NCBI GenBank assembly: GCA_943327315.2
Contig: CALPWQ020000015.1
Coordinates: forward strand, 1-36,386
Length of the DNA: 36,386 bases
From: Chitinophaga pinensis
GTDB lineage: Bacteria > Bacteroidota > Bacteroidia > Flavobacteriales_D > Crocinitomicaceae
Reading direction: 5' to 3'
Shown here one piece after another: positions 27,340 through 31,830 of this stretch. Within the stretch, counting starts at the first letter, position 1. Every line of letters begins with the position of its first letter. Both the position numbers and the translations under genes were made by a program. The notes below the pieces were generated by a model that was not told the origin of the DNA, searched no databases, and saw only the letters and a program-made list of their open reading frames with translations.

Positions 27340-29745
27340 ATGAATAGACACATTCAAAAAGTTGCAGTCCTCGGATCAGGCGTAATGGGTTCGCGCATTG
27401 CCTGTCATTTTGCCAATGTCGGTTGCGAAGTCCTGCTGCTCGATATTGTCCCGAGAGAATTATCTAGCGCAGAAGAAAAAAAGGGATGTACATTGGCAGA
27501 TAAGTCGGTCCGGAATCGTATTGTCAATGATTCTCTAAACGCCGCATTGGTCTCCAATCCATCCCCCATTTACAAAAAGTCCTTTGCGAATCGCATCAAA
27601 ACAGGAAATTTTGACGATGACATGTCGGCGATTGCTGCCTGTGATTGGATCATTGAGGTTGTTGTGGAGCGCTTGGACATTAAAAAACAGGTCTTTGATC
27701 AGGTTGAAAAATTTCGGAAGCCAGGTTCGATAATTACCTCCAATACATCAGGAATTCCGATTCATTTGATGCTCGAAGGGCGCAGTGAAGATTTTAAAAT
27801 ACATTTCTGTGGAAGTCATTTCTTCAATCCACCGAGATATCTTCAATTGCTGGAAATCATCCCAACGCCTGAAACAAAACAGGAGGTGATTCATTTCCTT
27901 ATGGGGTACGGTGCGAAAATCCTTGGGAAGAAAACGGTTCTTTGCAAAGACACACCCGCTTTTATTGCCAACAGAGTTGGAGTTTATGCCATCATGGCAC
28001 TTTTTCATGCGGTTCGGGAAATGAACTTAACTGTCGAGGAAGTCGATAAATTGACTGGTCCTGTGATGGGACGACCAAAATCAGCGACCTTCAGAACCTG
28101 CGATGTTGTGGGATTGGATACGCTCGTTCACGTGGCAAACGGATTAAAAGCGAATTGTCAAGGTGACGAAGAACACGGCCTTTTTGAGTTGCCGGATTAC
28201 ATCACGAAAATGGCCGAAAACAACTGGCTTGGATCAAAGACTGGTCAGGGATTCTACAAGAAAGTAAAACACGCAGATGGGTCGAGTGAAATCCTCGTTT
28301 TAGACCTCAACACCCTCGAATACAGACCATCAGAAAAGGTGAAATTTCCAACATTGGAGATGACAAAACCCATCGAAGATTTGAGGCAGCGTACAAAAAT
28401 GCTCTTTCTGGGCATGGACAAGGCCGGAGAATTTTACCGAAAGTTATTTGGTGGCTTGATGGCCTATGTAACAAATCGACTTCCTGAAATTACGGATGAC
28501 CTATACAAAATTGATGATGCCCTCAAGGCTGGATTTGGTTGGGAACTTGGTCCATTCGAAACCTGGGACCTCATCGGGTTTAAAGAAGGATTGAAAATGA
28601 TTAGAGCTGCGAATCGCAAACCAGCGGATTGGATCTTTGACATGTTATCGTCGGGAGAAAATTCGTTTTACAAACTCGAAAAAGGAAGCAAACAATACTA
28701 CGATGTCGCAAGTAAAACGTACAAAACGATCCCTGGAACAGAGGAATTGGTGATTTTGGAGGCATTGCGCAGTGAAAATAAGATTTGGGGAAATGCGGAT
28801 ACCACACTCGTTCACCTTGGCGATGGCATTCTGAACCTCGAATTCCACACAAAAATGAACACCATTGGCGGAGGGGTGATTGAAGGAATCAACAAAGCCA
28901 TTGACCTCGCTGAGAAAGAATACAAAGGACTTGTCATCTCCAACACTGGACAGAATTTCTCTGCTGGCGCCAATGTCGGGATGATCTTCATGATGGCGGT
29001 CGAACAAGAATACGATGAATTGAACTTTGCCGTTAAGGCCTTTCAAGATACCATGATGCGGGTAAGGTATTGCGATGTGCCAGTGATTGTAGCCCCTCAC
29101 AACCTCACCTTGGGTGGAGGGTGCGAACTATCGATGCATTCTGATAAAGTAGTCGCTCATGCTGAGATGTATATGGGTCTTGTTGAATTCGGTGTCGGCG
29201 TTATCCCTGGCGGAGGTGGTTCAAAAGAATTTACGAAACGACTTTCGGATGAATTGAAAGACGGCGACATCAAAATCAACCGCATGCGTGAACGCTTTCT
29301 GACCATCGGACAAGCTAAAGTATCCACCTCCGCTTATGAGGCATTCGACTTGGGTTATTTGCGTGAGGGAACCGATGAAGTTGTTGTGAGTCGTGACCAC
29401 CAATTGACCCGCGCCAAAGCGGCAGCATTGGAACTAGCAAACAAAGGATATGTGGCGCCAAAACGCGAAAAGAACATCACCGTGATGGGGCAAGAGGGAC
29501 TCGGAATCGTTTATGTTGGTGCCAATACGATGCTTTCTGGGAATTATATGTCCGACCACGATCGACTTATTTCCGAAAAACTAGGATTCGTGCTATGTGG
29601 AGGTGACTTAAGTGAAAACACGGTTGTTTCCGAGCAGTATCTACTTGATTTAGAACGTAAAGCGTTTGTGGAATTGTGCGCTGAGCGAAAAACCTTGGAG
29701 AGGTTGGAGAGTTTGGTGAGCAAGGGGAAAATACTTAGAAACTGA
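27340..29745 (+). CDS. fadJ: 3-hydroxyacyl-CoA dehydrogenase/enoyl-CoA hydratase fusion
   Basis: The 801-residue enzyme runs two beta-oxidation steps. Residues 1-320 are the dehydrogenase: the Rossmann motif LGSGVMGS lies near 11-18, with catalytic His160 in SHFFNP and Glu172 in LLEIIP. A second dehydrogenase C-terminal domain follows (about 350-450). The crotonase domain is C-terminal (about 490-700), with FSAGAN and both catalytic acids, Glu596 in GGGCEL and Glu616 in GLVEFG, so it should be an active hydratase. Domain order is dehydrogenase then hydratase, the reverse of E. coli FadB/FadJ. The fadJ symbol marks function, not strict orthology. It starts 2 bp after marR. Its thiolase partner is separated from it by the S23 cassette. 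Confidence 0.92.
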   Translation: MNRHIQKVAVLGSGVMGSRIACHFANVGCEVLLLDIVPRELSSAEEKKGCTLADKSVRNRIVNDSLNAALVSNPSPIYKKSFANRIKTGNFDDDMSAIAACDWIIEVVVERLDIKKQVFDQVEKFRKPGSIITSNTSGIPIHLMLEGRSEDFKIHFCGSHFFNPPRYLQLLEIIPTPETKQEVIHFLMGYGAKILGKKTVLCKDTPAFIANRVGVYAIMALFHAVREMNLTVEEVDKLTGPVMGRPKSATFRTCDVVGLDTLVHVANGLKANCQGDEEHGLFELPDYITKMAENNWLGSKTGQGFYKKVKHADGSSEILVLDLNTLEYRPSEKVKFPTLEMTKPIEDLRQRTKMLFLGMDKAGEFYRKLFGGLMAYVTNRLPEITDDLYKIDDALKAGFGWELGPFETWDLIGFKEGLKMIRAANRKPADWIFDMLSSGENSFYKLEKGSKQYYDVASKTYKTIPGTEELVILEALRSENKIWGNADTTLVHLGDGILNLEFHTKMNTIGGGVIEGINKAIDLAEKEYKGLVISNTGQNFSAGANVGMIFMMAVEQEYDELNFAVKAFQDTMMRVRYCDVPVIVAPHNLTLGGGCELSMHSDKVVAHAEMYMGLVEFGVGVIPGGGGSKEFTKRLSDELKDGDIKINRMRERFLTIGQAKVSTSAYEAFDLGYLREGTDEVVVSRDHQLTRAKAAALELANKGYVAPKREKNITVMGQEGLGIVYVGANTMLSGNYMSDHDRLISEKLGFVLCGGDLSENTVVSEQYLLDLERKAFVELCAERKTLERLESLVSKGKILRN

Positions 29746-29750
29746 TTTTG

Positions 29751-29792
29751 GACAATTGACAAAAGACAAGGGACAAGGGACAATAGACTTTG
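29751..29792. repeat. Left heptad array (GACAANN)n
   Basis: Six consecutive 7-bp units begin with GAC: GACAATT, GACAAAA, GACAAGG twice, GACAATA and GACTTTG. The array starts 5 bp after the dehydrogenase stop codon. Confidence 0.85.
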
Positions 29793-29832
29793 AAAGTTGA
29801 CTTTTATTTTGTAATTTGAATAGTAAAAAACA

Positions 29833-30186
29833 ATGGCGACACATAATTTTAGAAGGTTAGATATTTGGATTAACTCTATGGAATTAACGAAGTCCGTTTA
29901 CTCTATTCTTTCAGAAATTCCGAATGATGAAAAATTTGGTTTAAAATCTCAAATTTCGAGGTGTTCCATCTCAATTCCATCAAACATTGCAGAGGGGTCA
30001 GGAAGGTCAACGAATAAAGATTTCTGTCATTTTCTCAGCATTTCACTTGGATCAAGCTACGAACTAGAAACACAATTGATTCTTATACAAGATATTTTCT
30101 TCATCGAATGTGGAGAGATCATTCACAATTGTCATGATCTACAAAAGATGATTTTCAATTTTAAAAACACATTAAGCAAAAACTGA
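29833..30186 (+). CDS. Four-helix-bundle protein, S23/IVP family
   Basis: The 117-residue protein matches the S23 (23S rRNA intervening-sequence protein) family, with an LDIWINSMELTKSVYSI opening helix and the family signature SIPSNIAEGSGR at about 47-58. Four amphipathic helices are apparent. Relatives are encoded inside 23S rRNA insertions, as stand-alone genes, or as Avd accessory proteins of diversity-generating retroelements. No rRNA, reverse transcriptase or repeat pair for a retroelement is seen here. The gene is flanked by inverted heptad arrays and interrupts a beta-oxidation locus, so it may belong to a small mobile unit. Its biochemical role is unknown. Confidence 0.9.
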   Translation: MATHNFRRLDIWINSMELTKSVYSILSEIPNDEKFGLKSQISRCSISIPSNIAEGSGRSTNKDFCHFLSISLGSSYELETQLILIQDIFFIECGEIIHNCHDLQKMIFNFKNTLSKN

Positions 30187-30200
30187 TGAAGTAATTAAAG

Positions 30201-30253
30201 GTCATTTGTCTATTGTCTAATGTCCTTAAGTCTTTCGTCTTAAAATCTAATGT
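30201..30253. repeat. Right heptad array (GTCNNNN)n
   Basis: GTCATTT, GTCTATT, GTCTAAT, GTCCTTAA (one base longer), GTCTTTC and GTCTTAA follow each other, the inverse of the left array. Read on the other strand it contains AATAGAC, as does the left array. GTCTTAAAATCTAA at 30237-30250 recurs at 31781-31794. Confidence 0.8.
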
Positions 30254-30254
30254 A

Positions 30255-31433
30255 ATGAAACAACAAGCATACATAGTCACAGGATTTCGATCTGCAGTGG
30301 GAAAAGCAGGAAAGGGAGGATTTCGGTTTTACAGACCCGACGATTTGGCAGCGGACGTCATCAAACATTTAATGGAGTCTGTTCCACAATTGGATAAAAT
30401 GCGTGTGGATGACGTGATTGTTGGGAACGCGACACCAGAAGCTGAACAAGGGTTGAATGTCGGAAGAATGATCTCGCTGATGGGATTGAACACCGACAAA
30501 GTGCCAGGTATGACTGTCAATCGCTACTGTTCATCTGGATTGGAAACCATTGCTATTGCTACGGCAAAGATTGAAGCGGGCATGGCGGAATGCATTATCG
30601 CTGGTGGGGTGGAATCGATGTCGGTCATGGCGATGGGAGGATGGCGCATTGTTCCAAATCCAAAAGTGGGAAAAGAAAATCCAACGTGGTACTGGGGAAT
30701 GGGACTTACCGCAGAGGCCGTTGCGAATCAATACAGCGTTAGTCGCGAGGAGCAAGATGTATTTGCCTTACATTCACACGAAAAAGCATTGGCAGCGATT
30801 CAATCAGGACGCTTTCGAGATGACATAGTCCCGGTTAATGTGGAACGCATTTTCCTTGACGAAAACGAAAAGCGACAAGTTCAGCACTACACAGTGGACA
30901 CCGATGAAGGTCCGCGTGCAAGTAGTATTGATGCATTGGCCAAACTAAAACCTGTCTTTGCTATGGGTGGATCTGTCACAGCAGGAAACTCGTCACAGAC
31001 ATCGGATGGAGCAGCCTTTGTTTTAGTTATGTCAGAGCGCATGGTGAAAGAACTCCACCTAGAACCCCTTGCTCGATTGGCATCCTATGCTGTTGTTGGG
31101 GTTGAACCACGCATCATGGGGATCGGTCCAGTCGACGCCATTCCAAAAGCAATCGCCGCAGCCGGACTTACACTAAATGACATCAACCTCTTCGAATTGA
31201 ATGAGGCCTTTGCGTCACAGTCCATTGCAGTAATAAGAGAAGCAGGTTTAGATTCATCTTTAGTGAACGTGAACGGTGGCGCTATTGCACTTGGTCATCC
31301 ACTCGGCTGCACAGGAGCAAAGTTGAGTGTTCAGATCATGAACGAACTTAAAAAACGTCAACAAAAATATGGAGTTGTTACCATGTGTGTTGGAACTGGA
31401 CAAGGCGCTGCTGGGGTGATTGAGATGTTGTGA
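30255..31433 (+). CDS. fadA: Acetyl-CoA acyltransferase (thiolase)
   Basis: The 392-residue enzyme carries out the final beta-oxidation cleavage, releasing acetyl-CoA. The thiolase set is complete: nucleophile Cys92 in NRYCSSG, His348 in ALGHPLGCTG and Cys378 in TMCVGTGQG. The ATG at 30255 gives the usual MKQQAYIVTGFRSAVGK start; a longer reading begins with TTG inside the heptad array. It is the natural partner of the upstream dehydrogenase/hydratase, from which it is now separated by the S23 cassette. Whether transcription runs through the cassette is unknown. A long repeat region follows. Confidence 0.93.
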   Translation: MKQQAYIVTGFRSAVGKAGKGGFRFYRPDDLAADVIKHLMESVPQLDKMRVDDVIVGNATPEAEQGLNVGRMISLMGLNTDKVPGMTVNRYCSSGLETIAIATAKIEAGMAECIIAGGVESMSVMAMGGWRIVPNPKVGKENPTWYWGMGLTAEAVANQYSVSREEQDVFALHSHEKALAAIQSGRFRDDIVPVNVERIFLDENEKRQVQHYTVDTDEGPRASSIDALAKLKPVFAMGGSVTAGNSSQTSDGAAFVLVMSERMVKELHLEPLARLASYAVVGVEPRIMGIGPVDAIPKAIAAAGLTLNDINLFELNEAFASQSIAVIREAGLDSSLVNVNGGAIALGHPLGCTGAKLSVQIMNELKKRQQKYGVVTMCVGTGQGAAGVIEML

Positions 31434-31580
31434 GGATTTGATGCCTACGGCAATTTGATTGCTGCGAAAATTTGGGATTTGATCCTAAAGGAATTTGATG
31501 CCTACGGCAATTTGAAATTTGATTGCTGCGCAAATTTGGAATTTGATCCTAAAGGAATTTGGTGCCAGAGGCAATTTCGA
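31434..31580. repeat. Three imperfect direct repeats of 57-64 bp
   Basis: The 397 bp from 31434 to 31830 hold no credible gene; open frames here read across repeats. Units begin GGATTTGATGCCTACGG (31434), GGAATTTGATGCCTACGG (31490) and a diverged GGAATTTGGTGCCAGAGG (31554). Unit 2 differs from unit 1 mainly by a 7-bp AAATTTG insertion. The third unit runs into the inverted repeat at 31571. Confidence 0.85.
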
Positions 31581-31652
31581 AGTACGATCAAGTCCTTGTT
31601 CCATGTTCCATCAGCGAAGCGGTCCTTCGAAGCTCAAAGAGCGAAGAAGTGT
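31571..31652. repeat. Inverted partner of the repeat at 1-73
   Basis: 31623-31652 is the exact reverse complement of bases 1-30. 31571-31622 matches the complement of 31-73 with mismatches and small indels. The two copies bracket about 31.6 kb. Confidence 0.8.
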
Positions 31653-31753
31653 CCCTTGTGGCTTCGAGACTGCTGCGCACCTCAGCCACCAAGATCCTTT
31701 GTCTATTATCGCCGAGTCCCTTGTGGCTTCGAGACTTCCTGCGGAACCTCAGC
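31651..31753. repeat. Two REP-like hairpin repeats
   Basis: Two copies (31651-31689, 31716-31753) begin GTCCCTTGTGGCTTCGAGAC. In the first, GTGGCT and GAG pair with CTC and AGCCAC (31681-31689). In the second, GGCT/AGCC and GAG/CTC are kept and an inner TTCC/GGAA stem appears. The shared core GTGGCTTCGAG also occurs twice at 96-138. Confidence 0.7.
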
Positions 31754-31762
31754 CCAAGTCTT

Positions 31763-31794
31763 GACATCTTAAAATCTTGACGTCTTAAAATCTA
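31763..31794. repeat. 16-bp direct repeat pair
   Basis: GACATCTTAAAATCTT (31763) is followed at once by GACGTCTTAAAATCTA (31779). The second shares GTCTTAAAATCTAA with the right arm of the S23 cassette at 30237-30250. Confidence 0.75.
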
Positions 31795-31818
31795 AATCTC
31801 TTAATCTCCAAATAGGAC

Positions 31819-31826
31819 TACCTTTA
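31819..31826 (+). promoter_or_regulatory. Possible -7 box of the helicase gene
   Basis: TACCTTTA lies 4 bp before the ATG, so the transcript would start at or beside the start codon and be nearly leaderless. A TTAAT lies 13-17 bp upstream, as before the acidic protein gene. Confidence 0.4.
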
Positions 31827-31830
31827 CCAC

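Follow-up and report, generated by a model that had tools for sequence, protein, structure and literature searches.

Inverted heptad arrays enclose S23 genes at operon junctions of Bacteroidota and might be the ends of a small mobile cassette

The S23 gene described here and the two inverted arrays that enclose it are best understood as a small mobile cassette of operon junctions that resembles an intervening sequence (IVS) and has the arrays as its ends. This reading ranks first among those considered, with a probability that we put at roughly 0.55. Cassettes composed of a heptad array, an S23 gene and the inverse heptad array, about 0.5 kb long and located in sense orientation between an operon stop codon and the next start codon, are a widespread kind. 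Each S23 lineage possesses a private repeat unit, and the two arms stay matched. Among close relatives the cassette is present or absent to the base, and cassettes of different S23 type have been exchanged at one junction together with their arms and without the neighboring genes.

The S23 cassette between the fadB-like and the thiolase gene

The window, by which we mean the whole analyzed stretch of 36,386 nt, comes from a Bacteroidota genome of 3.04 Mb on 178 contigs, which contains three S23 genes. Upstream of the cassette lies a fadB-like gene for a 3-hydroxyacyl-CoA dehydrogenase/enoyl-CoA hydratase of 801 aa (ORF at 27340-29745, plus strand; Pfam 3HCDH_N, 3HCDH and ECH_1) and downstream a fadA-like gene for an acetyl-CoA acyltransferase (thiolase) of 392 aa (30255-31433, plus strand; Pfam Thiolase_N and Thiolase_C). 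The gap between the fadB-like stop codon and the thiolase ATG, as read from the sequence, comprises 509 bp (29746-30254), and the preliminary description was correct in stating that the cassette fits exactly between the two genes. The left arm (29751-29788, plus strand) is located 5 nt past the fadB-like stop codon and consists of six units, mostly GACAANN, with GAC at positions 29751, 29758, 29765, 29772, 29779 and 29786, exactly 7 nt apart (TRF period 7, period score 16). It is followed by an intact S23 (four-helix-bundle) gene of 117 aa (29833-30186) on the plus strand, which is common to both host genes. The right arm (30201-30239, minus strand) is the inverse array with six GTC units at 30201, 30208, 30215, 30222, 30230 and 30237, that is with spacings of 7, 7, 7, 8 and 7 nt. 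The arrangement first noted, an S23 gene between a (GACAANN)n array and its inverse GTC array, could be confirmed in this form. A repeat search reports the arms as one 18-nt inverted pair (30208-30225 with 29771-29788, 83% complementary).

The S23 protein is a clear member of PF05635 (E 2.2e-32, 111.9 bits at a cut-off of 33.8) and of TIGR02436, 23S_rRNA_IVP (E 4.8e-32, 110.4 bits at a cut-off of 24). PF05635 is the sole Pfam match within the cassette and no transposase domain was detected there, which bears out the earlier statement on this point. Comparisons with Pfam, TIGR02436 and known structures revealed no nuclease or transposase domain in S23 proteins, and an Rfam search of the whole window was without match. 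In the family alignment, the polar residues Q40, R43, S47, N51, E54, S74 and E77 (numbering of the window protein) are invariant or nearly so, which suggests that they form a site of some role.

The arm-to-arm score of the window locus (14.0) is exactly the threshold value introduced below, and the right array taken alone has a period score of 9.5, below the array threshold of 12. Therefore, the significance of the arrangement is carried by the family and not by the window locus. The second S23 gene of the same genome (L002) has inverted arrays of another unit, GAGTTAC versus GTAACTC, and the third (L003) is without inverted arrays.

Inverted arrays are specific for S23 genes

An S23 gene is present in at least 54 of 60 related genomes, and S23 proteins were found in at least 116 of the 148 Bacteroidota genomes sampled. 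The genes analyzed were drawn from the best-scoring end of the matches listed, and the relatives G037-G059 are represented by the S23 genes that the search delivered. A period-7 array occurs on one side or both in 47 of 113 S23 genes of the relatives. For the comparison of the two sides, the left 300-bp flank was aligned with the reverse complement of the right flank and a score of at least 14 was counted as inverted; this threshold was kept fixed for all later S23 sets. Excluded before counting were loci with less than 150 bp of flank (leaving 103 of the 113 genes), loci whose flanks were identical and S23 ORFs shorter than 90 aa. The control genes are simple longest-ORF calls.

The threshold was reached by 64 of 103 S23 genes in the first set, versus 4 of 280 other genes of those loci. 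Mispaired S23 flanks reached it in 8 of 309 cases, and in direct orientation the count for the S23 genes is 13 of 103. A second set from other orders and classes gave 16 inverted loci out of 30, a set of named genomes 54 out of 89 (control genes: 4/92) and a set of S23-rich genomes, which overlaps the second, 24 out of 48. The pooled matches listed comprise 256 distinct S23 loci, almost all from Bacteroidota. Mutually reverse-complementary flanks are present in 150 of them and flanks that match in direct orientation in 27, and 106 are below the arm threshold. Of the matched control genes, all with a gap of 40 nt or more on either side, 4 of 105 are inverted. Since at least one armed member is present in 60 of 94 S23 clusters formed at 60% identity, relatedness is not the cause of this excess. 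Inspection of the S23 genes of relatives with their flanks, which had been proposed at the outset, established in this way that the inverted arrays are S23-specific, and the view of gene and arrays as one unit is supported by this pairing in the first, second, named and pooled sets.

Anatomy, position and orientation of the arms

The left arms have a mean autocorrelation of 0.60 (lag 7) and 0.59 (lag 14); the values are 0.33 and 0.335 for lags 8 and 16, and 0.26-0.28 for all other lags between 3 and 15. Among the 137 arms with a length of 20 nt or more, heptad arrays prevail (101), followed by octad arrays (25) and arms of neither type (11). The units vary from S23 gene to S23 gene and include GACAANN, GAGTTAC, GAGANNC, GGAACAT, GATTTTAA, TAGATNT, AAGTATC and others. 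Despite these differences between genes, left and right arm match each other.

Median distances to the S23 gene, taken from the first 65 armed loci, are 45 nt between the left arm and the start codon and 26 nt between the stop codon and the right arm. The outer distances, determined for 130 armed loci between co-directional genes, have medians of 2.5 nt from the upstream stop codon and 12 nt to the downstream start codon. Between co-directional genes, 130 armed S23 genes are in sense and 7 in antisense orientation, while among the control genes of the S23 loci 132 of 227 have both neighbors co-directional and 17 of 227 both opposite.

Over all non-syntenic pairs, the similarity of the arms does not follow S23 identity (Spearman 0.00). 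Non-syntenic arm scores of at least 14 were obtained for the single pair with at least 0.7 identity, for about 17% of the pairs at 0.6-0.7 (n = 24) and for at most 2.4% below. Arms common to different loci are thus found among near relatives only. Near-identical S23 copies at different places were not found: of the 33 pairs that are more than 70% identical, 30 have flanks in common, and a further two show a match only between opposite sides. Among pairs whose flanks are not shared, the highest identity is 0.70. With dN/dS values of about 0.03-0.25 among close relatives, where not saturated, S23 is under purifying selection.

The arrays might also have a regulatory role without any mobility, in which an S23 ring would act on them as operators or as attenuator repeats and so control the expression of its own gene and of the downstream gene. 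Consistent with this, the known structures of S23 relatives (2gsc and 2rld) are entries with five chains, S23p of X. campestris is described as a pentameric ring in an excerpt of PMC4990558, and the dinucleotide AG, which tops all other dinucleotides, occurs in every heptad of 47 of the 101 left heptad arms on the S23 strand. However, presence, absence and swaps among close relatives would be unexpected in a core-metabolism regulator, each S23 has different arms, and the host genes beside armed S23 genes are unrelated to one another (beta-oxidation, DNA polymerases, sugar transferases). We therefore regard a purely regulatory role as quite improbable.

Empty sites and exchange at the fadB/fadA junction

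A thiolase search of 40 relatives yielded 30 loci. Within the genus, 11 of 16 loci possess an S23 gene between fadB and fadA, four have a gap of 2 nt and one has a gap of 102 nt without S23. The four short gaps, without remnants, are the empty sites with adjoining neighbors that had been anticipated in the preliminary description. In other families, three of 13 loci have an S23 gene, six have gaps of 1-30 nt and three have gaps of 72-107 nt; one further locus has a gap of 676 nt without S23 match.

The arms at this junction are of several kinds, and in 10 of 13 cassettes the left arm matches its own right arm with a score of at least 14. A fixed heptad, as the first description of the locus implied, does not exist: the same junction bears arms of other units in relatives. 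The score of left arms with their own right arms averages 16.2, versus 10.4 with the right arms of other genomes, and the weakest own scores are those of L153 (11.0), L156 (9.2) and L159 (9.4). Covariation of the arms was considered for this junction and rejected, since within one arm type foreign arms score equally or higher.

Exchange is seen in the host clade of G005, G021 and G023 (support 100), in which the flanks are 0.75-1.00 identical per 60 nt. The junction of G005 is without S23. The S23 gene of G021, with GACAA arms, groups with the S23 clade of the window (support 100/98), and that of G023, with octad arms, with the S23 clade of G002, G003 and G008 (support 99/89). The two S23 proteins (L072 and L075) share only 53% identity, while the flanking genes of G021 and G023 are 0.87-1.00 identical per 60 nt, and S23 and arms must therefore have been replaced together. 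The exchanged tract ends within about 60 nt of the cassette. Units of different kind have consequently replaced each other at one junction, in line with the original idea of a moving unit. In a second host clade, consisting of G011, G012 and G014 (support 100), G011 alone is occupied. The flanks of the occupied locus L156 are 85-100% identical per 60 nt to those of the empty loci L154 and L157, and no target-site duplication is visible in this closest and sole close comparison.

The S23 tree with all 18 genes at fadB/fadA requires seven label changes, two of them forced by supported branches; this label set includes L073, L081, L085 and L092 beyond the initial 14 rows, which required six changes, and two distant genes were found in addition. 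However, a single clade for the 18 genes is not rejected (p-AU 0.079). The proposal of several independent insertions was dropped for this reason, and ancestral presence with losses and swaps may account for the pattern instead. The swap between G021 and G023 stands apart from this question, since it does not rest on these labels.

The same p-AU value leaves room for a passive history, in which S23 would be a vertically inherited operon gene in a space prone to minisatellites, the likeness of the arms would be due to gene conversion or to template switching across the palindrome, and the swaps would be allelic homologous recombination. Many S23 genes of other families that also adjoin thiolase or fadB-like genes would agree with such a history (L174, L178, L181, L183, L185 and L190, next to distant thiolase or fadB-like genes with 42-54% thiolase identity), as would the S23-free heptamer arrays known from Bacteroidetes according to an excerpt of PMC4679880. 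It accounts less well for the restriction of inverted arrays to S23 genes (150/256 versus 4/105), for an exchanged tract that stops so close to the cassette in G021/G023 and for empty sites of exactly 2 nt without remnants, and we consider it rather unlikely. For the preferred reading as a mobile cassette, allelic recombination with very short tracts may nevertheless have taken the place of transposition.

The loci of the other families listed above give the impression that beta-oxidation operons might be favored by S23. L159 (from G038) has one S23 gene before the thiolase gene and a second, unlike S23 gene directly after it, and L034 (from G055) has one S23 gene, which is located after the thiolase gene.

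Further junctions

The junction of dinB and dnaE behaves like that of fadB and fadA. Among the genus loci that could be judged, S23 is present in seven and absent in eight, and two more end at contig ends. G002 and G008 share 94.5% identity in dinB and 92.7% in dnaE, while their S23 proteins at this junction are 55% identical and the arms are unrelated (GAGANNC in G002, GGAACAT in G008). In G008, the left gap has GAGAACTGAGAACC at its start, followed by the GGAACAT array. The gap of G010, which is without S23, has retained a GGAGCATGGAACATGG array and a short inverse copy.

A third place is located between the genes for a DUF3817 protein and for 2-phosphosulpholactate phosphatase. Judged by the order and sizes of the neighbors, the S23 cassettes of L113 and L114, which are antisense, have the opposite orientation to those of L108 and L109, and the S23 genes belong to sister lineages. 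This is the result either of an inversion between the cassette arms or of a separate insertion. In two strains of Flavobacterium columnare, a gene for a 'four helix bundle protein' lies between the genes for guanylate kinase and nicotinate mononucleotide adenylyltransferase and is listed as a phage region in table 5 of PMC5524665. To judge from this table, it is probably another junction cassette.

Relation to known systems

The preliminary description stated that the arrangement matches no known element class. This is too strong, since the S23-bearing IVS of 23S rRNA has this anatomy (PMC4990558) and RAYT genes between inverted REPs are similar (PMC2817692), as far as the excerpts of both papers go. 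The IVS in the 23S rRNA of Coxiella burnetii contains an S23 ORF between terminal inverted repeats, and S23 proteins are stated to have no known function in the same excerpt of PMC4990558. The IVSs described there share with the cassettes a length of about 0.43-0.5 kb, a single S23 ORF, terminal inverted repeats, which in the cassettes might form a stem, the location inside a transcript and the sporadic presence. However, the window cassette lies between the fadB-like and the thiolase gene and not in an rRNA gene, the arms of the cassettes are heptad or octad arrays that vary by S23 lineage, and the Coxiella ORF is described in this excerpt as decaying, in contrast to the S23 genes of the cassettes with their purifying selection.

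RAYT genes stand between inverted REPs, and the excerpt of PMC2817692 presents the same combination of a gene between inverted copies of a genome-dispersed repeat which varies by lineage. The cassettes differ from it in lacking an HUH tyrosine transposase (only PF05635 was matched), in having a tandem heptad as repeat instead of a palindrome with a GTAG head as described there for REPs, and in that dispersed arrays sometimes occur without a matching S23 (GACAA in G010, octads in G000). From insertion sequences and MITEs, the unit is distinguished by a cassette that is itself without transposase.

Intergenic direct repeats of the heptamer TAACTGA have been described from Beggiatoaceae, Cyanobacteria and some Bacteroidetes (PMC4679880). 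They resemble the S23 arms as intergenic heptamer arrays, and relatives have shorter, repeat-free intergenic regions. Unlike the S23 arms, they are direct arrays of one unit and mostly located before start codons, and the term S23 is absent from the portion of PMC4679880 that was searched.

With regard to protein fold, the cassettes recall yet another system, the diversity-generating retroelements. Their Avd protein has a pentameric four-helix-bundle fold; the S23 unit is without reverse transcriptase and without template and variable repeats.

We found no description of S23 genes between inverted heptad arrays in the full-text literature, whose scope leaves out most subscription journals. Taken singly, the S23 family, IVSs with an S23 gene and the heptamer arrays of Bacteroidetes are known, and judged by this literature their union as a general cassette of protein operon junctions seems to be new. 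The combination of a gene, private inverted arrays and an operon junction is the first general context for the S23 family and makes the family testable with respect to binding, excision and mobility. If the preferred reading is true, many heptamer arrays in these genomes are explained, and IVS-like elements extend beyond rRNA to operons of core metabolism, where they are swapped like alleles.

A possible mechanism and the role of RNA

The arms would be the functional ends of a mobile, IVS-like element, and such an element could live on the read-through transcription of its host operons. In the transcript, the arms might fold back on each other and thereby bring the stop and start codons of the host genes together. 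The insert would be looped out or cut out, by analogy with the S23-bearing IVSs of 23S rRNA possibly by RNase III, so that an insertion into an operon would be tolerable. Owing to the repetition of the unit, the arms could still pair in whatever register, and slippage would therefore be harmless.

Wobble pairs were considered as evidence for an RNA stem and lend it no support: arm mismatches that allow G-U pairing are not in excess over A-C mismatches (72 versus 83 in 65 loci, 133 versus 163 in 150 loci, p 0.09). Duplexes of the arms are more stable in sense than in antisense (p 0.005), and unarmed loci show the same bias. At least 15 cross pairs are predicted for 147 of 150 armed loci, 87 of 106 unarmed loci and 182 of 256 mispaired flank pairs. 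For the window, 41 arm-to-arm pairs are predicted, with mispaired flanks pairing well too and the G-U bias being absent; the 13 fadB/fadA cassettes range from 8 to 56 pairs (L159: 8, L156: 10, L153: 13). Since mispaired flanks often pair as well, we did not count folding as evidence. A role of the arms in RNA fits their sense bias and placement, with the wobble result negative and folding non-discriminating. A role in DNA, for which no enzyme has been described, fits the missing wobble bias and the scattered arrays.

Arrays apart from S23 genes

With at most one mismatch, GACAANNGACAANNGACAA has 84 matches in the window genome, versus 2 for the reversed control pattern. No other inverted pair within 1 kb exists among these matches; the sole pair surrounds the window S23. 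The preliminary description would have taken arrays equally common away from S23 genes as an argument against the unit, and since window-unit arrays elsewhere in the genome outnumber the S23-adjacent ones (84 matches on 178 contigs versus three S23 genes), this objection holds in part, while the inverted pairing around a gene remains specific for S23. The scattered GACAA arrays have no orientation preference, as the 14 arrays that could be placed are 3 convergent, 5 co-directional in each of the two directions and 1 divergent.

The distribution of the arrays bears on a further possibility, a DNA element comparable to a REPtron, in which the arrays would be bound by the S23 pentamer in the form of double- or single-stranded DNA. 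The ends for transposition would be the inverted arrays, and the scattered ones would be non-autonomous copies, comparable to REPs in their relation to RAYT transposases. The gene is indeed flanked by inverted arrays, and the missing G-U bias agrees with arms acting at the DNA level. Exact triple GACAANN arrays reach high numbers in no genomes other than the five nearest ones (52 in G000, 40 in G004, 40 in G010, 149 in G015, 100 in G024), the other 55 genomes having at most 9 each and 45 of them none, and a second unit behaves alike, with 38-129 arrays in the same five genomes and at most 9 elsewhere. GAGANNC arrays are confined to G002 (27 arrays, the only strong case), G003, G008 and G021, of which G002, G003 and G021 also have S23 genes with GAGANNC arms. 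However, S23 is without nuclease or transposase domain, and the window S23 pair is the sole inverted pair among the 84 matches. G010 (83% complete) contains its 40 GACAA arrays with an empty fadB/fadA junction, and a GACAA-armed S23 was not found there. Of the three S23 genes of G000, none has octad arms, despite 12 octad arrays in this genome. Furthermore, the five array-rich genomes are one clade and thus represent few independent events. Such an element can be proposed only tentatively.

The IVS-like cassette could also be taken further, as a minimal mobile element that forms a class of its own in Bacteroidota and in which a ring protein of about 117 aa would recognize the arrays of its own lineage, and host enzymes or a partner in trans would install gene and arms at stop/start junctions. 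Co-evolution of protein and arrays would then lead to the private ends, and the scattered arrays would be footprints. This extension is speculative, and we hold it to be doubtful.

Other repeats were seen in the window itself. After the thiolase gene, positions 31434-31830 contain an arm-like mosaic of arrays without S23, made up of AATTTGAT... repeats, TCCATGT heptads, TTGTCCC/TTGTCTA remnants and ATCTTAAA octads. The same region includes a dispersed repeat, CTGCTGCGCACCTCAGCCACCA (31670-31691), which has 17 matches in the genome at up to two mismatches (control: 0) and is often found near GTAACTC heptads. Finally, a 32-bp tandem unit that shares the motif GGCTTCGAG with this dispersed repeat is present at positions 88-161, within the region 88-184.
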